A stretch of 64,000 nucleotides of DNA, from the NCBI RefSeq assembly GCF_003952425.1, contig NZ_CP034449.1:744001-808000 (forward strand), read 5' to 3'. The translations under genes were made by a program, and so were the position numbers. Source of the stretch: Mesorhizobium sp. M2A.F.Ca.ET.046.03.2.1 (GTDB lineage Bacteria; Pseudomonadota; Alphaproteobacteria; Rhizobiales; Rhizobiaceae). Positions 37,627 through 43,419 of this stretch are shown in pieces; position 1 is the first letter of the stretch, and each line of letters opens with the position of its first letter. Under the pieces are notes generated by a model that ran no database searches, had not been told where the DNA came from, and saw only the letters and a program-made list of their open reading frames with translations.

Positions 37627-37895
37627 CGCCCAACCGAGGCGACGTTGTCCAACCCCGCCGCAGAGAGCGAGCGCTAACGGCAACGCCTGCCCGAGAAAAT
37701 AGCGCCTGAACTGATGCAATCTGATGGGATTGCTGATGGCGCGCGAAGCTGTGCCAACATCCATTGGCGATGGAGGCTTGCCATCGTCTGAAAAAGGGAA
37801 TGCTCTGGACGTTCCGGTCGGCGCTGGCAGGAGACGTGGACAAAGGCCGCGTCGCGCCGATCCAGGAGGAGAGTTTCAACATGGGAGGAAATCGA
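37627..37895. other. 269-base intergenic region
   Basis: It separates the FAH-family gene from the binding-protein gene and presumably holds the transporter promoter. I saw no convincing promoter pair, operator or RNA in it, apart from the strong GGAGGAA ribosome site at its end. Confidence 0.4.
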
Positions 37896-38828
37896 ATGCT
37901 TTCGCGGCTAAGACTGCTCGTGCTTGGCTTGATCGCGCTCATCGCCATTCCGGCGATGGCTGAGGCCAAGACGTTCTACTGGATTTCACATGGCGGCCCG
38001 GCCGACCCGGTCTGGACCTATTTCCTGGCCGGCGCCAAGCAATGGGCAAGCGACACCGGCAATAAGGTCAACACGTCGTTCCACAATGGCGACGTTGCCT
38101 CGCAGCAGGAGGCGATCCGCGCCGCCATCTCGGCCAAGGCCGACGGCATCGTCACCACCAGCCCCGATCCGGGCAGCCTGATCGAGCTCGCCAAGGAAGC
38201 GCGCGCGGCCAACATCCCGATCATCAACTTCAACACACCCGACCCGAAAGCCAACTTCAACGCCTATGTCGGCGGCGACAACGTCACCTTCGGCAAGCAC
38301 TGGGCGCAATACCTGGTCGACAAGGGCCTTGTGAAGAAAGGCGACTTCGTCTGGATGCCGGTCGAGGTTCCCGGCGCCACCTATGGCGTGCAGGAAGAGG
38401 AAGGCATCAAGAGCGTCTTCGAGCCGCTCGGCATCACCTATGAAATCACCGAGGCCACGCTCGACCAGGCCGAAGTGATCAGCCGCATGGCCGACTATCT
38501 CACCGCGCACAAGGGCAAGGTGAAGGCGATCATCGGCCTCGGCGACCTCGTCACCGGCTCGATCAAGCGGGTGTTCGACCAGGTCGGCGTCAAGGCGGGC
38601 GAGATCCCGGTCGTTGGCTGGGGCAATTCGCTCGACACCACGCAGGAAGTGCTGAACGGCTATGTCAACGCCGCGCAGTGGCAGGACCCGCAGGCGACCA
38701 GCTATGTGGCGCTGTCGCTCGCCAACATGGCCGCCAGCGGCATCCCCCCGGGCTTCAATGTCATCACCGGCGCGCTCTACGAGAAGGACACCGCCGGCGT
38801 CTACGACAAGATCCTGTCCGGCAAATAA
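37896..38828 (+). CDS. sugar-type ABC solute-binding protein
   Basis: The 310-residue periplasmic protein has a signal peptide (cleavage near AMAEAK, residue 22) and a type 1 periplasmic binding fold (Peripla_BP_4): YWISHGGPADPVWTYFLAGAKQW, then AISAKADGIVTTSPDPGSLIEL, and VVGWGNSLDTTQEVLNG. The ATG at 37896 is chosen because GGAGGAA precedes it by five bases. Earlier ATGs at 37881 and 37764 lie outside the signal peptide. A hairpin follows the stop. Confidence 0.9.
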   Translation: MLSRLRLLVLGLIALIAIPAMAEAKTFYWISHGGPADPVWTYFLAGAKQWASDTGNKVNTSFHNGDVASQQEAIRAAISAKADGIVTTSPDPGSLIELAKEARAANIPIINFNTPDPKANFNAYVGGDNVTFGKHWAQYLVDKGLVKKGDFVWMPVEVPGATYGVQEEEGIKSVFEPLGITYEITEATLDQAEVISRMADYLTAHKGKVKAIIGLGDLVTGSIKRVFDQVGVKAGEIPVVGWGNSLDTTQEVLNGYVNAAQWQDPQATSYVALSLANMAASGIPPGFNVITGALYEKDTAGVYDKILSGK

Positions 38829-38880: not shown

Positions 38881-38955
38881 ATGCTACCGCCGCCGGCGCC
38901 CGCCGCCATACCCGGCGCGAAATCCGGCCAGTTTCAATCATGTCACGGGTATCTC

Positions 38956-39942
38956 GTGGAAAATCATTCCTTCGTCCAGCGCCTGATCGGCAGGTCAGAA
39001 TTCGGCCCCCTTGTCCTGCTCGTCGTCGAGTTGGTCGTGTTCTGGGCCATCAATCCGGACTTCCTCTCGCCGCAGAACATCTCCAACATCCTGGCCTTCA
39101 CCGTCGAGCTCGGCCTGATCGCGCTGGCGATGACGCTGTTGATGACATCGGGTGAATTCGACCTTTCCGTCGGCTCGCTGTTCGGCTTCTCGCCAGTGCT
39201 GATGTGGACGCTGTTCAACAGCGGCGTCACCTCGCTGGAGGTGGGCCTGCTGATCGCGCTAATCGTTGCCGCGCTGATCGGGCTGGTCAATGGCTGGTTC
39301 GTCACCCAGCTCAAGATCCCGTCCTTCCTGGTCACGCTCGGAATGCTGCTGGTCGTGCGCGGCACGGCGCTCTTCGTCACCGACGGCTTCCCGCAGCGGA
39401 CCTGGAGCGCCGAAGGCAGCTGGCTGGCCGATATCCTCGTCGGCGACTTCTATGTCGGGCCGTTCCGCATCTACGCCTCGCTTTTCTGGTTCATCGGCGC
39501 CGCGATCATCCTTGGCTATGTGCTGACGCAGAGCCGGACCGGCAACTGGATCCAGGCCGCCGGCGGCAATCCCAATGCGGCGCGCGCCCGCGGCGTCAAC
39601 GTCAACCGCGTCAAGGTCGGTCTGTTCGTCCTGTCGGCGGTGATGGCTTCGCTGGCCGGCGTGATCTCGTCGCTGCGCACCTCCGCGGCCAACCCCAACA
39701 GCGGCACCGGCTATGAGCTCGAGGTTATCGCCATGGTGGTGATCGGCGGCACGGCGCTGACGGGGGGACGCGGCACCATCATCGGCACGGTGCTCGGCAT
39801 CCTGATCCTGCGCGTCATGCGCAACGGCATCGTGCTGATCGGGGTGCCGGGGCTTGCCTACAACATCTTCATCGGCGCGATCATCCTCGGCATGATGGCG
39901 CTGCATTCGTGGCTCGAACGCCGGCACCAGGCAGGGACTTAA
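38956..39942 (+). CDS. sugar-type ABC permease (RbsC-like)
   Basis: The 328-residue product has about eight to ten membrane segments and the RbsC-type motif TSGEFDLSVGSLFGFSPVL, then AAGGNPNAARARGVNV and VIGGTALTGGRGTIIGTVLG near its end. The GTG at 38956 gives a natural cytoplasmic start (VENHSFVQRLIG). The in-frame ATG at 38881 would begin inside the hairpin and has no ribosome site. The ATPase gene follows after four bases. Confidence 0.88.
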   Translation: MENHSFVQRLIGRSEFGPLVLLVVELVVFWAINPDFLSPQNISNILAFTVELGLIALAMTLLMTSGEFDLSVGSLFGFSPVLMWTLFNSGVTSLEVGLLIALIVAALIGLVNGWFVTQLKIPSFLVTLGMLLVVRGTALFVTDGFPQRTWSAEGSWLADILVGDFYVGPFRIYASLFWFIGAAIILGYVLTQSRTGNWIQAAGGNPNAARARGVNVNRVKVGLFVLSAVMASLAGVISSLRTSAANPNSGTGYELEVIAMVVIGGTALTGGRGTIIGTVLGILILRVMRNGIVLIGVPGLAYNIFIGAIILGMMALHSWLERRHQAGT

Positions 39943-39946
39943 GACG

Positions 39947-40741
39947 ATGGCCGAGCCTCTGATCCGCATGGCAAACATCCGCAAGTCCTACGGGCGCGTG
40001 CAGGCGCTGGTGGACGCCAATTTCCACGTCAACGAAAAGGAGATCGTCGGCCTGCTCGGCGACAACGGCGCCGGCAAGTCGACATTGATCAAGGTGCTGT
40101 CGGGCGCCGTGCCGCTGACCAGCGGCGACATCTTCGTCCGCGGCAAGAAGGTCAATTTCCGCAGCACCAGCGACGCAATCGCTGAGGGCATCGAGACGAT
40201 CTACCAGGACTCGGCGCTGGTCACGCAGCTGTCGATCGCGCGCAACCTGTTCCTCGGCCGCGAGCCGATCAAGCCGCCGCGCTTCCTGAACCGCATGGAC
40301 CAGGAGGCGATGAACGCGGTGGCGCGCGACCTTCTGCGGCAAGTCGGCATCACCAAGAACATCCCGCCGACGACGCCGATCGGCTCGCTGTCGGGCGGCG
40401 AGCGGCAGGCGGTCGCAATCGCGCGCGCCATGCATTTCGACAGTGATCTCATCATCCTCGACGAGCCGACCAACAATCTCGGCGTCGCCGAGACGCAAGG
40501 TGTCTTGAGCTTCGTGCGCAGCGCCCGCGACTCCGGTCATTCCTGCATCTTCATCGCGCATAACATCCACCACGTCTTCCAGGTGGTCGACCGCATCGTG
40601 GTGATGCGCCGGGGCAAGGTGGTGGCCGACGACATCGATCCGAAGAAGACGACGGTGGCCGAGGTCGAGCGCGTCATCACCGGCATGTCGGACAAGGAAA
40701 TCCGGGATGCGATCACCGACGGCCGGGAATCGCATGGCTGA
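39947..40741 (+). CDS. sugar-type ABC ATPase, single-domain
   Basis: The 264-residue product has Walker A GDNGAGKST near residue 37, the sequence IETIYQDSALVTQLS for the Q-loop, signature LSGGERQA, Walker B LIILDEPTNNLG and the H-switch IAHN. Most sugar ATPases of this class (RbsA) have two tandem domains. This one has one, like FrcA of Sinorhizobium, so it should act as a homodimer. Confidence 0.92.
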   Translation: MAEPLIRMANIRKSYGRVQALVDANFHVNEKEIVGLLGDNGAGKSTLIKVLSGAVPLTSGDIFVRGKKVNFRSTSDAIAEGIETIYQDSALVTQLSIARNLFLGREPIKPPRFLNRMDQEAMNAVARDLLRQVGITKNIPPTTPIGSLSGGERQAVAIARAMHFDSDLIILDEPTNNLGVAETQGVLSFVRSARDSGHSCIFIAHNIHHVFQVVDRIVVMRRGKVVADDIDPKKTTVAEVERVITGMSDKEIRDAITDGRESHG

Positions 40742-40788: not shown

Positions 40789-41823
40789 ATGACTGGACCC
40801 ATGAAAGCCACCGTAGCCGACATCGCCAGGAGCTGCGGCCTGTCGACCGCGACCGTCGACAGGGTGCTGAACAACCGTCCGGGCGCAAGTGCCGCCAACC
40901 GGCAGCGCGTGATGGAAGCGGCCAAGCAGCTCGGCTATCTGCCGACACTCGACCAGGTCGTGCTGCCCTCGAAGCCGGCGCATCTCGAATTCTTCCTGCC
41001 GATCGGGTCCAACGCCTTCATGGCCGATCTTGCCCATCACATCGAGGACTATGCGGCGCGCCTGCCCCTGGTCGCGTCGTGCCGCATCCACAATCTTGCC
41101 GGCATTTCGCCCAGCGCGCTGCAGAGCGCTGTGGAGAATCTGTCGCTCAAGGCCAATGGCGTCGGCGTCATCGCCGTCGATCACCCGCGCACGCGCAACA
41201 TCTTGCGCGAGCTGGTCGAGGCGGGAATCAGGCTGGTCACGCTGGTCTCAGACGTGCCAGCGGCGCCCCGCTCGGCCTATGTCGGCATCGACAACCGCGT
41301 GGCGGGCCGCACAGCGGCGCTGCTGATGGGGCGCTTCCTCGGCGGCCGCACCGGGCATCTGGCGATGATGGTCGGCTCGCGCTCCTATCGCGGCCATGAA
41401 GAGCGCGAGATGGGCTTCCGCTCGGTGCTGAGCGAGGAGTTCCCCAATCTCACCGTGTCCAGCGCCGTCGAGATCAACGACGAGCCAGACGCCAGCTACC
41501 GCGCCACCATCAAGGCGCTGCACGACGAACCGGATCTGCTCGGCATCTACTGCGTCGGCGGCGGACGCTCCGGCGTCGCCAGGGCGTTGCTGGAAGCCAA
41601 GCCGCGCAGGAAGCCGGTCTTCATCTGCCACGACCTGACCAAGGAGACACGGCGCTATCTCGTCGATGACCTCGCCGATGTCGTCATCGACCAGAATGCG
41701 CGGCTGATCGCCGAACAGTCGGTGATCCGCCTGCTCGGCTCGATCGCCTCCTCGGCGCCCTACCTGACCAAGAAATTCATCGAGCCGCGGCTGATCTTCA
41801 AGGAAAACGTGCCGGTGCAGTAG
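40789..41823 (+). CDS. LacI-family regulator
   Basis: The 344-residue product has an N-terminal LacI HTH (ATVADIARSCGLSTATVDRVLNNRPG, residues 7-33) with hinge helix and a periplasmic-binding-like effector domain (AYVGIDNRVAGRTAALLMG, GIYCVGGGRSGVARAL). TVDRVLN in place of the usual TVSRVLN is seen in some rhizobial members. It is last in the FAH/ABC operon and likely controls it. A second ATG at 40801 is possible. Confidence 0.9.
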   Translation: MTGPMKATVADIARSCGLSTATVDRVLNNRPGASAANRQRVMEAAKQLGYLPTLDQVVLPSKPAHLEFFLPIGSNAFMADLAHHIEDYAARLPLVASCRIHNLAGISPSALQSAVENLSLKANGVGVIAVDHPRTRNILRELVEAGIRLVTLVSDVPAAPRSAYVGIDNRVAGRTAALLMGRFLGGRTGHLAMMVGSRSYRGHEEREMGFRSVLSEEFPNLTVSSAVEINDEPDASYRATIKALHDEPDLLGIYCVGGGRSGVARALLEAKPRRKPVFICHDLTKETRRYLVDDLADVVIDQNARLIAEQSVIRLLGSIASSAPYLTKKFIEPRLIFKENVPVQ

Positions 41824-41910
41824 GCCGGCAATGGTGCCGGCGGGTGCCTATTCGGATTTGTCTGATAATTGATCCCGCAATTCTGCACAGCAGCTATGCA
41901 CGTTTCGCAA

Positions 41911-41939
41911 TTGCCGAATCGTTGGGCAACTCGTATTTA
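41911..41939 (+). promoter_or_regulatory. promoter of the alpha-r14-like RNA
   Basis: TTGCCG at 41911-41916 and TATTTA at 41934-41939 are separated by 17 bases, a reasonable housekeeping promoter. Transcription would start near 41946, just ahead of the first hairpin. Confidence 0.6.
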
Positions 41940-41945
41940 TGAACC

Positions 41946-42056
41946 TGTCGGATGTCTTCCTCCTCCCAGACACCGGCGCTGAGTGCGGTACACCTCCTCC
42001 CGTGCCGTATTCGTAATCAAGCCCGCTGCCACCTCCTCCCGGCAGCGGGCTTTTTC
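41946..42056 (+). ncRNA. nfeR1: alpha-r14 family small RNA (NfeR1-like)
   Basis: Three consecutive hairpins each show the same nine bases CCTCCTCCC in the loop, at 41959-41967, 41993-42001 and 42032-42040. Stems are TGTCT/AGACA, CGGTAC/GTGCCG and GCCCGCTGCC/GGCAGCGGGC. The third is followed by TTTTTC and is a rho-independent terminator. Anti-Shine-Dalgarno loops in three hairpins are the hallmark of the alpha-r14 (suhB, RF00519) family, which includes Sinorhizobium NfeR1, a translation inhibitor of many transporter messages linked to nodulation and osmoadaptation. The 5' end is estimated from the promoter. Confidence 0.87.
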
Positions 42057-42127
42057 TTTGTGCGCAATAAGGCGGCGCTCCAGCCCCCGGATTGCCATCC
42101 GAATTGCGAAGGGCAATTCGGGGCAAT

Positions 42128-42187
42128 CCGACCTCTCCCCAAGGGAGAGGAGACGGTCGGCGCCGACCCCAATCTCTTCTCCCCTCG
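42128..42187. repeat. repeat family D copy 2, left part
   Basis: Starts CCGACCTCTCCCCAAGGGAG and ends CTTCTCCCCTCG. The last four bases, CTCG, are the duplicated target of the insertion sequence. Confidence 0.8.
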
Positions 42188-43376
42188 GAGGGCTTTGCAC
42201 GGAACTGAGTTGGTGATTCCGTATGTCCGGCATGAAGGGGAGATGATTCGGATGGTCGATCGCGTGCTTGGACAACTGAGCCTTGCGGATGGGCTGGTGT
42301 GGTCGGATGTGACGGAGCTTGACCAGATCTCGCGAGTGATCGACTGGGTGCCGATCAAGGCGCTTCTTGGTCAGCGCAGCGGACCAGGACGGGGCAATAT
42401 TAGCTATCCGGCCGAGGCCTTGCTGCGCTGTCTGCTGCTTGGCGTGTGGAACAATCTCAGCGATCCTTCGCTGGAGGCACAACTGCGCGACCGGCTGTCG
42501 TTCCGCCGCTTTGCCGGTTTCAGCCTGTCGGACCCCACGCCGGACCATTCGACGTTGTGGCGTTTCCGCGAGGAGCTGAAGTGCGATGGGCTGATCGACC
42601 GGGTGTTTTATGAGATCACGCGGCAGCTTGAGCAGAAGGGGCTGATCGTCAAGCGCGGCACGTTGATTGATGCCTCCTTCATGCAGGCCGCCGCGCGCCC
42701 GCCGGCGAAGCCGAAGAAGGGTGAGGAGGCGACGGCGCGGCCATCGGCTGATGGCGAGGCACGTTGGGGACGCAAGGGCAACAAGACCGTGTTCGGCTAT
42801 AAGGTGCACAACGGCGTCGACGATGCTCATACGCTGATCCGGCGCATGGACTTCACGGATGTATCGGTCACCGATACCGAGCCGGCCGACGGCCTGATCA
42901 TCGGGGACGAGAAGGCGGCCTATGGCGACCAAGCCTACTACACCCATGCCCGCCATGCCCGGCTGAAGCAGGCCGGCATCAAGGACCGGCTGATGCACAG
43001 AGCCAACAAGCACCATCCGCTGACGCCGCGTCAGAAGCAGCGCAACCGGCTGATCTCGAAGGTGCGGGCGGCAGTGGAGCGGCCGTTTGCAGTGTTCAAA
43101 CAGCGCTACGGCATGCGGCGACTGCGCTTCTTCAACCTTGCCACCAACAGGACGCAGTGCATGCTTGCCGGCTGCGGCTACAATCTGCAGCGAGCGGCCG
43201 CAGTCCTTTTCCCGAAGAGGAAGCCGGCATGAGGCGCAGTCCGCCCAAAATCCACTGCCAAGGCGGCCTGAGGCCCCAAGAGCGAGGCAAAATAACCCGC
43301 CAAAGCGGCCAGAGCGCCTTTCAAAAAACGCCCATCCGCCTCGTGCGCTAAATATCGACTCCCATGCAAAACCCTC
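42188..43376 (+). mobile_element. IS5-family insertion sequence
   Basis: The element is 1189 bases long. Its ends are GAGGGCTTTGCACGG on the left and, read inward, GAGGGTTTTGCATGG on the right, an imperfect terminal inverted repeat. It is bounded by the direct repeat CTCG at 42184-42187 and 43377-43380, a four-base duplication as in the IS5 group. Removing the element and one CTCG restores the CTTCTCCCCTCGGGGAGAAG palindrome of repeat D, which confirms both ends. Confidence 0.92.
42243..43232 (+). CDS. IS5-family DDE transposase
   Basis: The product of about 329 residues has an N-terminal DUF772-type domain (YPAEALLRCLLLGVWNNLSDPSLEAQL, RFAGFSLSDPTPDHSTLWRFR) and a DDE catalytic core: Asp in TLIDASFM, Asp in YGDQAYY and Glu in RAAVERPFAVFKQRYGMRR. 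No frameshift is visible, so the element may still be active. The frame is open upstream to 41952, but this lies outside the element and inside the small RNA, so it is not coding. Start is 42243 or the ATG at 42252, which has better spacing to AAGGGGAG. Confidence 0.92.
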   Translation: MIRMVDRVLGQLSLADGLVWSDVTELDQISRVIDWVPIKALLGQRSGPGRGNISYPAEALLRCLLLGVWNNLSDPSLEAQLRDRLSFRRFAGFSLSDPTPDHSTLWRFREELKCDGLIDRVFYEITRQLEQKGLIVKRGTLIDASFMQAAARPPAKPKKGEEATARPSADGEARWGRKGNKTVFGYKVHNGVDDAHTLIRRMDFTDVSVTDTEPADGLIIGDEKAAYGDQAYYTHARHARLKQAGIKDRLMHRANKHHPLTPRQKQRNRLISKVRAAVERPFAVFKQRYGMRRLRFFNLATNRTQCMLAGCGYNLQRAAAVLFPKRKPA

Positions 43377-43419
43377 CTCGGGGAGAAGGTGGCCGCGAAG
43401 CGGCCGGATGAGGGGGAGT
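43377..43419. repeat. repeat family D copy 2, right part
   Basis: CTCGGGGAGAAGG, then GTGGCCGCGAAGCGGCCG and GATGAGGGGG, the continuation of the copy interrupted by the insertion sequence; identical in order to the end of D1. Confidence 0.85.

Follow-up and report, generated by a model that had tools for sequence, protein, structure and literature searches.

Small RNAs of the αr14 family are described as consisting of three hairpins whose stems vary while the CCUCCUCCC loops are identical (PMC10746234). For the family member NfeR1 of Sinorhizobium meliloti, pairing with ribosome binding sites was shown experimentally to block translation initiation, and the two mRNAs reported as confirmed targets before ntrB both encode binding proteins (PMC10746234). 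S. meliloti carries six αr14 copies, only one of which was reliably detected by Northern blot (PMC7143759). Three-loop RNAs of this kind were described in the Rhizobiales in 2011 (PMC3927594). Loops with CCUCCUCCC are also a feature of the CcsR RNAs, which occur with the DUF1127 protein CcaF1 at the CIN1 locus of Rhodobacter sphaeroides (RF02791); the DUF1127-CcsR arrangement has been described for alphaproteobacteria (PMC10253847). The AbcR RNAs (αr15) likewise direct anti-Shine-Dalgarno motifs at ABC transporter mRNAs, and partial SuhB homology belongs to this family and not to αr14 (PMC7143759). AbcR1 is activated by LsrB (PMC8844928), for which the LsrB/VtlR box GCAT-N3-TG-N3-T has been published (PMC8844928, PMC7486931). 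An LsrB motif, TGCA-N6-GCAT, is reported in the nfeR1 promoter of S. meliloti (PMC10746234).

The locus analyzed here was found in a window of 64 kb, i.e. the whole stretch of Mesorhizobium DNA under analysis. It is of the same kind as the three-loop Rhizobiales model SmelA075 of 2011 and the "cuckoo" RNA family. With αr14/NfeR1 it shares three hairpins, three CCUCCUCCC loops, a third hairpin that serves as terminator, variable stems, an LsrB-type box in the promoter and the occurrence of several copies per genome (six in S. meliloti, five here). It resembles the CcsR RNAs in its loops, but this is a solitary copy without a visible DUF1127 neighbor, and its score with the CcsR1 model was only 24.2 bits against a cut-off of 65.3. 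The likeness to AbcR1 and AbcR2 lies in an anti-Shine-Dalgarno RNA that may be aimed at ABC transporter mRNA and in a candidate LsrB-type box, although the RNA family is a different one. Our main reading, to which we assign a probability of roughly 0.75, is that the locus encodes an αr14 RNA acting by loop pairing with ribosome binding sites, with an LsrB-type protein as the leading candidate for its regulator.

Identity and Extent of the RNA Gene

Across the whole window, the search with Rfam covariance models gave a single match above cut-off. RF02344 (ar14) scored 75.8 bits against a gathering cut-off of 58.8, and the match covered model positions 1–123 of 123. Based on this match, the fold and covariation, the αr14 small RNA gene was placed at 41943..42057 on the forward strand. 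A sequence-only reading of the same DNA had proposed an αr14/NfeR1-type RNA, which the RF02344 score bears out; membership of the locus in this already known family is nearly certain. The same reading had linked the RNA to suhB and named RF00519 as its model, and this part was wrong. RF00519 had no match in 41700–42300 up to E = 5, and its sole place above cut-off in the genome was 4843364–4843442, not this locus. Because the model is silent here, yet matches elsewhere in the genome, a suhB/AbcR identity was rejected. CcsR1 (RF02791) was rejected on the score given above; the CcsR1, sX13, and ar7 models gave E values of 0.0012, 0.015, and 0.027, respectively, all with scores far under their own cut-offs. 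No tRNA was detected by ARAGORN in the 64-kb window.

The RNA had been assigned to 41911..42057. This interval does contain it on the forward strand, but the core promoter was included as well. The RNA proper is best set at about 41943/41946 to 42057, with a probable transcript start at ~41943–41946. It is likely that this candidate αr14 RNA of ~112–115 nt acts in trans. Since Northern blotting reliably detected one of the six S. meliloti copies, this copy may be weakly expressed. The RNA itself is no surprise, the family being known, and by identity it is an ordinary member. No description of this locus was found in the openly licensed literature. What may be new is that, across the related genomes examined, it stays next to an operon for a sugar-type transporter; a promoter box that is seemingly common to the locus and another αr14 operon may be new as well.

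Hairpins, Terminator, and Conservation of the Structure

The predicted fold of 41943–42057 consists of three hairpins with all three loop motifs unpaired. Its energy was −52.9 kcal/mol compared with a mean of −29.0 kcal/mol for shuffled sequences (z = −7.6), and 0 of 200 shuffles were as stable. On the forward strand, hairpin 1 (41946..41978) carries CCTCCTCCC in its loop at 41959–41967, hairpin 2 (41980..42013) at 41993–42001, and hairpin 3 at 42032–42040. Hairpin 3 and the following T run form an intrinsic terminator at 42019..42057, with the stem-loop extending to 42052; a 12-pair stem and a 10-nt loop are followed by TTTTTCT. The exact copies of CCTCCTCCC at 41959, 41993, and 42032 are the only ones on either strand of the window. 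Both the three hairpins with CCTCCTCCC in each loop and the function of the last one as terminator had been claimed from the sequence. The former is confirmed by the exact positions and the fold, and for the latter, TTTTT can be seen following hairpin 3. Hairpin 3 was missed by the terminator scan, which permits loops of at most 8 nt. In the 7.37-Mb genome, the exact triple-motif pattern occurred at 4 places, every one an ar14 copy, and the reversed control pattern at none. Because the pattern is confined to ar14 copies and the reversed control gave 0 places, the triple motif is not due to chance.

To the window, 80 loci selected through the adjacent LacI gene were added for the structure alignment (the best 80 of 529 LacI relatives, 76 of the 80 from Mesorhizobium), yielding 81 sequences, of which 65 were distinct. 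In these 65 orthologues (window included), standard pairs filled 99.6% of the pair cells, and 8 of the 31 pairs had changes on both sides, in a test that is favored by a structure derived from the very alignment tested. Sliding the partners by 1–3 columns reduced pairing to 34–50%. The stems covary and represent a real RNA structure, in which variable stems retain their pairing. Three CTCCTCCC motifs were present in 64 of the 65 distinct orthologues. In the predicted folds, 181 of 194 motifs were fully unpaired and 13 partly paired, and all 13 were the first motif. Exact CCTCCTCCC was found in three copies in 25 orthologues, in two copies in 39, and in one copy in 1. Loop 1 has exact CCTCCTCCC in 25 of 65 (the window among them), and elsewhere it mostly has CTCCTCCC.

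Putative Core Promoter and Upstream Palindrome

A putative core promoter, TTGCCG-N17-TATTTA, was located on the forward strand at 41911..41939 (hexamers at 41911–41916 and 41934–41939). The 17-base spacing proposed by the sequence-only reading is correct, but both hexamers are weak, and a sigma-70 scan returned zero sites. Because of this empty scan, the promoter call rests on conservation; few parts of the intergenic region are as well conserved as 41884–41939. This stretch begins with a conserved palindrome (41884..41900), which on the reverse strand reads TGCATAGCTGCTGTGCA and holds the LsrB/VtlR-type box GCAT-N3-TG-N3-T at 41887–41899. A second dyad, TGC-N11-GCA, at 41912–41928 overlaps the −35 element. 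When the 80 loci were anchored on the RNA, TGCA-N9-TGCA (41884–41900 here) was found in 78, TTGC-N11-GCA in all 80, and the two together in 78. Relative to the putative start at 41946, the palindrome dyad lies at about −62 to −46 and the box at about −59 to −47; in the abcR1 promoter of S. meliloti, the LsrB/VtlR box is reported at −61 to −49 (PMC8844928).

The box was exact in 49 of the 80 loci and was present in 79 when one mismatch was allowed, which is a lenient test. There is one exact box in the 217 nt upstream of the RNA and nine in the 64 kb. The box was tested after other published motifs had been tried, and a single exact match is weak alone, since 541 of 10,000 dinucleotide shuffles of the 119-nt upstream stretch also hold one. 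As an AbcR-type control, the surroundings of the RF00519 place at 4843364 were searched, and no exact box was found within 1500 nt. Two further RF00519 places in the genome, both below cut-off, did not appear AbcR-like by eye. As motif, position, and conservation fit, we see about an even chance that an LsrB/VtlR-type LysR regulator activates this αr14 copy via the palindrome at 41884–41900. The promoter reading, if true, would mean that the LsrB-αr14 link reaches into Mesorhizobium as well.

The promoter differs from that of nfeR1 as published, also in the position of its dyad. TGCA-N6-GCAT was absent from both strands of 41824–41960, and TTGCCG-N17-TATTTA takes the place of the NfeR1 promoter CTTAGAC-N17-CTATAT. 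The exact NfeR1 promoter pattern with set loop spacing was found in 0 of 297 family genomes, with spacing limits that were maybe too tight.

In a phasin-linked class of αr14 loci (L005, L197–L216), a separate promoter block, TGCAnCAAAAsGTCGCATTT, is conserved. Some of these loci also have a CGTCAGACAAAT stretch upstream of the RNA; judged by eye, its reverse complement resembles the TTTGTCTGACGA-like stretch that precedes the RNA in the window and in many of its orthologues.

Neighboring Operon and Distribution

Upstream of the RNA and on the same strand, the window encodes a periplasmic sugar-type binding protein (Peripla_BP_4, 37896..38828), an ABC permease (BPD_transp_2 by Pfam, 38881..39942, start approximate), an ABC ATPase (39947..40741), and, as the last gene before the RNA, a LacI-family regulator (40789..41823). 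NCBIfam matches of the operon proteins were far under the cut-offs and so assign no substrate. The LacI gene ends at 41823, ~120 nt before the RNA model start, in agreement with the distance given by the sequence-only reading. Among the LacI-selected loci (best 80 of 529), the RNA was downstream of the LacI gene on the same strand in all 80; measured from the LacI end, the match started within 200 nt in 76 of them and at a distance of ~2.8 kb in the other 4. In a shorter check, 29 of 30 loci (our own included) had LacI next to the RNA. The genes for binding protein, permease, ATPase, and LacI all preceded the RNA in 20 of 20 fetched genus loci, and the RNA was followed by a TetR gene in 19 and an RND gene in 18, the misses being stretch or contig ends.

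Outside the genus, nine loci were fetched whose match reached well into the promoter. No LacI match was found in any of them; eight had at least 1.8 kb of upstream sequence, and L242 was too short upstream. The TGC-N11-GCA dyad stood before TTG in all nine, beside other genes and partly by selection, and the exact box GCAT-N3-TG-N3-T was present in 4. Because promoter and RNA stand without lacI outside the genus, the LacI link looks like a genus trait and the promoter element older.

In the window, an IS-type element (42176–43388) with a DDE transposase (42234–43232) separates the RNA from the TetR gene. Its ends are 27-nt imperfect inverted repeats (42176–42202 and 43362–43388, 85%). The transposase had no match above 45% identity in the 19 orthologous loci that extend far enough. 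In the promoter region of the binding-protein operon, at 37711–37741 and in orthologues, a strongly conserved CTGATGCAATCTGATGGGATTGCTGATGGCG block with repeated CTGATG was observed. It could be an operator, perhaps one bound by the neighboring LacI protein. Of 21 upstream stretches of the binding-protein gene, none contained TGCA-N9-TGCA or the exact box.

The genome searched consists of one contig of 7,372,807 bases. It has five ar14 copies above cut-off, namely the present one, a tandem pair at 5978629–5978926, and copies at 1302550–1302668 and 1465691–1465806. In a set of 61 genomes, ar14 was found at E ≤ 0.001 in 37 of 37 genomes of the genus (our own included) and in 9 of the 24 drawn from the order's other families. 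When the locus DNA served as query, promoter plus RNA were covered in 33 of the 37 genus genomes (our own included); three (G005, G006, and G024) gave no match and G013 only a piece of ~33 nt. Most genomes of the genus thus have this αr14 copy, but not all. Among 297 family genomes (5 of this genus, our own included), 68 had matches to the locus DNA, and from these the nine loci outside the genus were drawn. Sixteen records of the plasmid collection were matched, and in 4 of them the match spanned 80% or more of promoter plus RNA. These four are Mesorhizobium plasmids, three listed as M. ciceri and one as Mesorhizobium sp., covered over 93–95% of promoter plus RNA at ~79% identity, suggesting that a promoter-αr14 RNA unit of this kind sits also on plasmids.

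Predicted Targets and Mechanism

Among 55 crudely called window genes, the binding-protein gene next to the RNA ranked second by duplex energy; the ranking used mechanical gene calls with starts picked by best pairing, which favors low energies for all genes. Seven contiguous complementary bases were found at this gene only (GGAGGAG before the start at 37881 and GGGAGGA before the start at 37896). Pfam identified five binding-protein genes in the 20 window genes scanned, and because their ranks are spread (2, 5, 7, 49, and 50 of 55), ABC genes are not uniformly favored. It had been proposed that the loops pair with AGGAG-type sites of many local genes, among them the one at 37896. The interaction prediction supports the named gene, which is the 1 of 55 with 7 contiguous bases, but not a general preference for ABC genes. 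Local AGGAG pairing is weak evidence, since Shine-Dalgarno sites are by nature partly complementary to the loop.

Of the 80 LacI-selected loci, 72 were scored for this site, and GGGAGGA preceded the start of the binding-protein gene in 71; the other six neighboring genes offered at most 4–6 complementary bases. A binding-protein target is in keeping with the two NfeR1 targets confirmed before ntrB. The conserved Shine-Dalgarno sequence GGGAGGA is explicable without a small RNA, as a strong ribosome site looks identical. We regard the adjacent binding-protein mRNA as the best local target candidate, at somewhat less than even odds. A testable target with a conserved 7-base pairing site thus adjoins the RNA gene. 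A proven target of NfeR1 in S. meliloti is ntrB, whereas the ORF taken here as ntrB (upstream of an ntrC match) is poorly complementary, pairing at its start via GGAG only with a computed energy of −5.8 kcal/mol. Because of this poor pairing, we see no evident counterpart in this genome of the ntrB arm known from the Sinorhizobium loop, and that arm may not hold here.

The proposed mechanism starts from three stable hairpins that present three identical anti-Shine-Dalgarno loops, as shown by sequence, fold, and covariation. By analogy with NfeR1, each loop would base-pair with ribosome binding sites rich in purines and thereby keep translation from starting, and we consider such pairing by this RNA highly probable. 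An LsrB/VtlR-type LysR regulator bound at the palindrome 41884–41900 would switch transcription on, and the mRNA of the adjacent binding protein would be the most likely local target.

Alternative Explanations

For control of the RNA, two other regulators were considered. NtrC represses nfeR1 in S. meliloti, where TGC-N11-GCA is its reported promoter motif (PMC10746234), and it might repress the present copy through the dyads at 41884–41900 and, over the −35 element, 41912–41928. Only 103 of 20,000 dinucleotide shuffles reach the two dyads seen in the 119 nt upstream, 78 of 80 loci retain TGCA-N9-TGCA together with TTGC-N11-GCA, and TGC-N11-GCA also precedes the phasin-linked αr14 copy in 20 of 21 loci. 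However, the motif has six fixed bases only, the S. meliloti site at −116 to −101 lies off the core promoter, conservation fails in the L004-like αr14 class (3 of 8 loci), and the first dyad is equally readable as an LsrB-type box. NtrC repression, which would be compatible with LsrB activation, is therefore judged unlikely. Control by the adjacent LacI-family protein, which would turn the RNA into a local feedback arm dedicated to the sugar-type ABC operon, appears quite improbable. In its favor is the constant gene order, as every one of the 80 LacI-selected loci (best 80 of 529) has the RNA downstream of LacI in the same orientation and all operon genes lie before it in 20 of 20 fetched loci. 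Against it, the nine promoter-RNA loci outside the genus lack a LacI match (8 with at least 1.8 kb upstream), and the palindrome and exact box occur in 0 of 21 binding-protein upstream stretches, which hold other conserved elements. The LsrB-type regulator remains our leading candidate.

With regard to the element itself, it follows lacI at ~120 nt in the same orientation and ends in a terminator, so it could be no more than the terminator of the ABC-lacI operon or a structured 3′ end of its transcript, silent as a small RNA; most S. meliloti αr14 copies are reported as undetected by Northern blot (PMC7143759). Three conserved anti-Shine-Dalgarno loops and an upstream palindrome would be superfluous for a terminator, though; moreover, the match including the promoter region starts ~2.8 kb from lacI in 4 of 80 loci, and outside the genus the element stands without lacI. 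We hold this explanation to be a long shot. An AbcR/suhB-type RNA (αr15), which would share the aim of anti-Shine-Dalgarno motifs at ABC transporter mRNAs, is refuted by the RF00519 results and has practically no probability left. An αr14 RNA that acts through its loops is thus the preferred reading.

Relation to a DUF1127-linked αr14 Operon

Elsewhere in the same genome, the tandem αr14 pair (5978629–5978926) follows two short DUF1127-type ORFs, the nearer of which was confirmed as DUF1127 by Pfam. The region 5978629–5979430 comprises the DUF1127-type ORFs and the tandem pair behind one conserved promoter, an arrangement like that of CcsR/CIN1. In 30 DUF1127-linked loci (our own plus one per genome from 29 genomes), TGCA-N6-GCAT-N3-TG-N3-T was found in 29, located 99–109 nt before the first DUF1127-type start. 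This element joins the LsrB motif of S. meliloti nfeR1, TGCA-N6-GCAT, to the LsrB/VtlR box. The operators of the present copy and of the DUF1127 operon are identical in 13 of 17 positions by direct comparison. Their consensus, TGCATWGCWGCYRTGC, is matched without mismatch at only two places in the 7.37-Mb genome, and these are the two operators themselves; because the consensus was built from both sites, only the absence of other exact places is informative.

Through the shared operator, the present copy and the DUF1127-αr14-αr14 operon would answer the same signal. We tentatively suggest that the two might form a dedicated, nearly private LsrB/VtlR-type regulon, with a near-unique operator in opposite orientations, in which the present RNA, having become fixed next to the sugar-type ABC operon, would silence the neighboring binding-protein mRNA and a locus at 6246081 would be a third member; taken as a whole, this is rather doubtful. 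For Mesorhizobium, the resulting prediction is that several αr14 copies share the redox/symbiosis regulator LsrB through a near-unique genomic box. At 6246081, a one-mismatch copy of the operator was observed, with two apparent hairpins with T runs within ~150 nt by eye. The region that follows matched no Rfam family up to E = 0.5. This locus is possibly a further candidate small RNA under the same regulator. The thirtieth locus (L030, on G013:C49) is arranged differently, with an αr14 RNA and the TTGCATTGCACAA element of the DUF1127 class in a relative's genome of 4.5 Mb. It has a reverse LsrB-type box directly before the RNA and appears as a hybrid of the two promoter classes.
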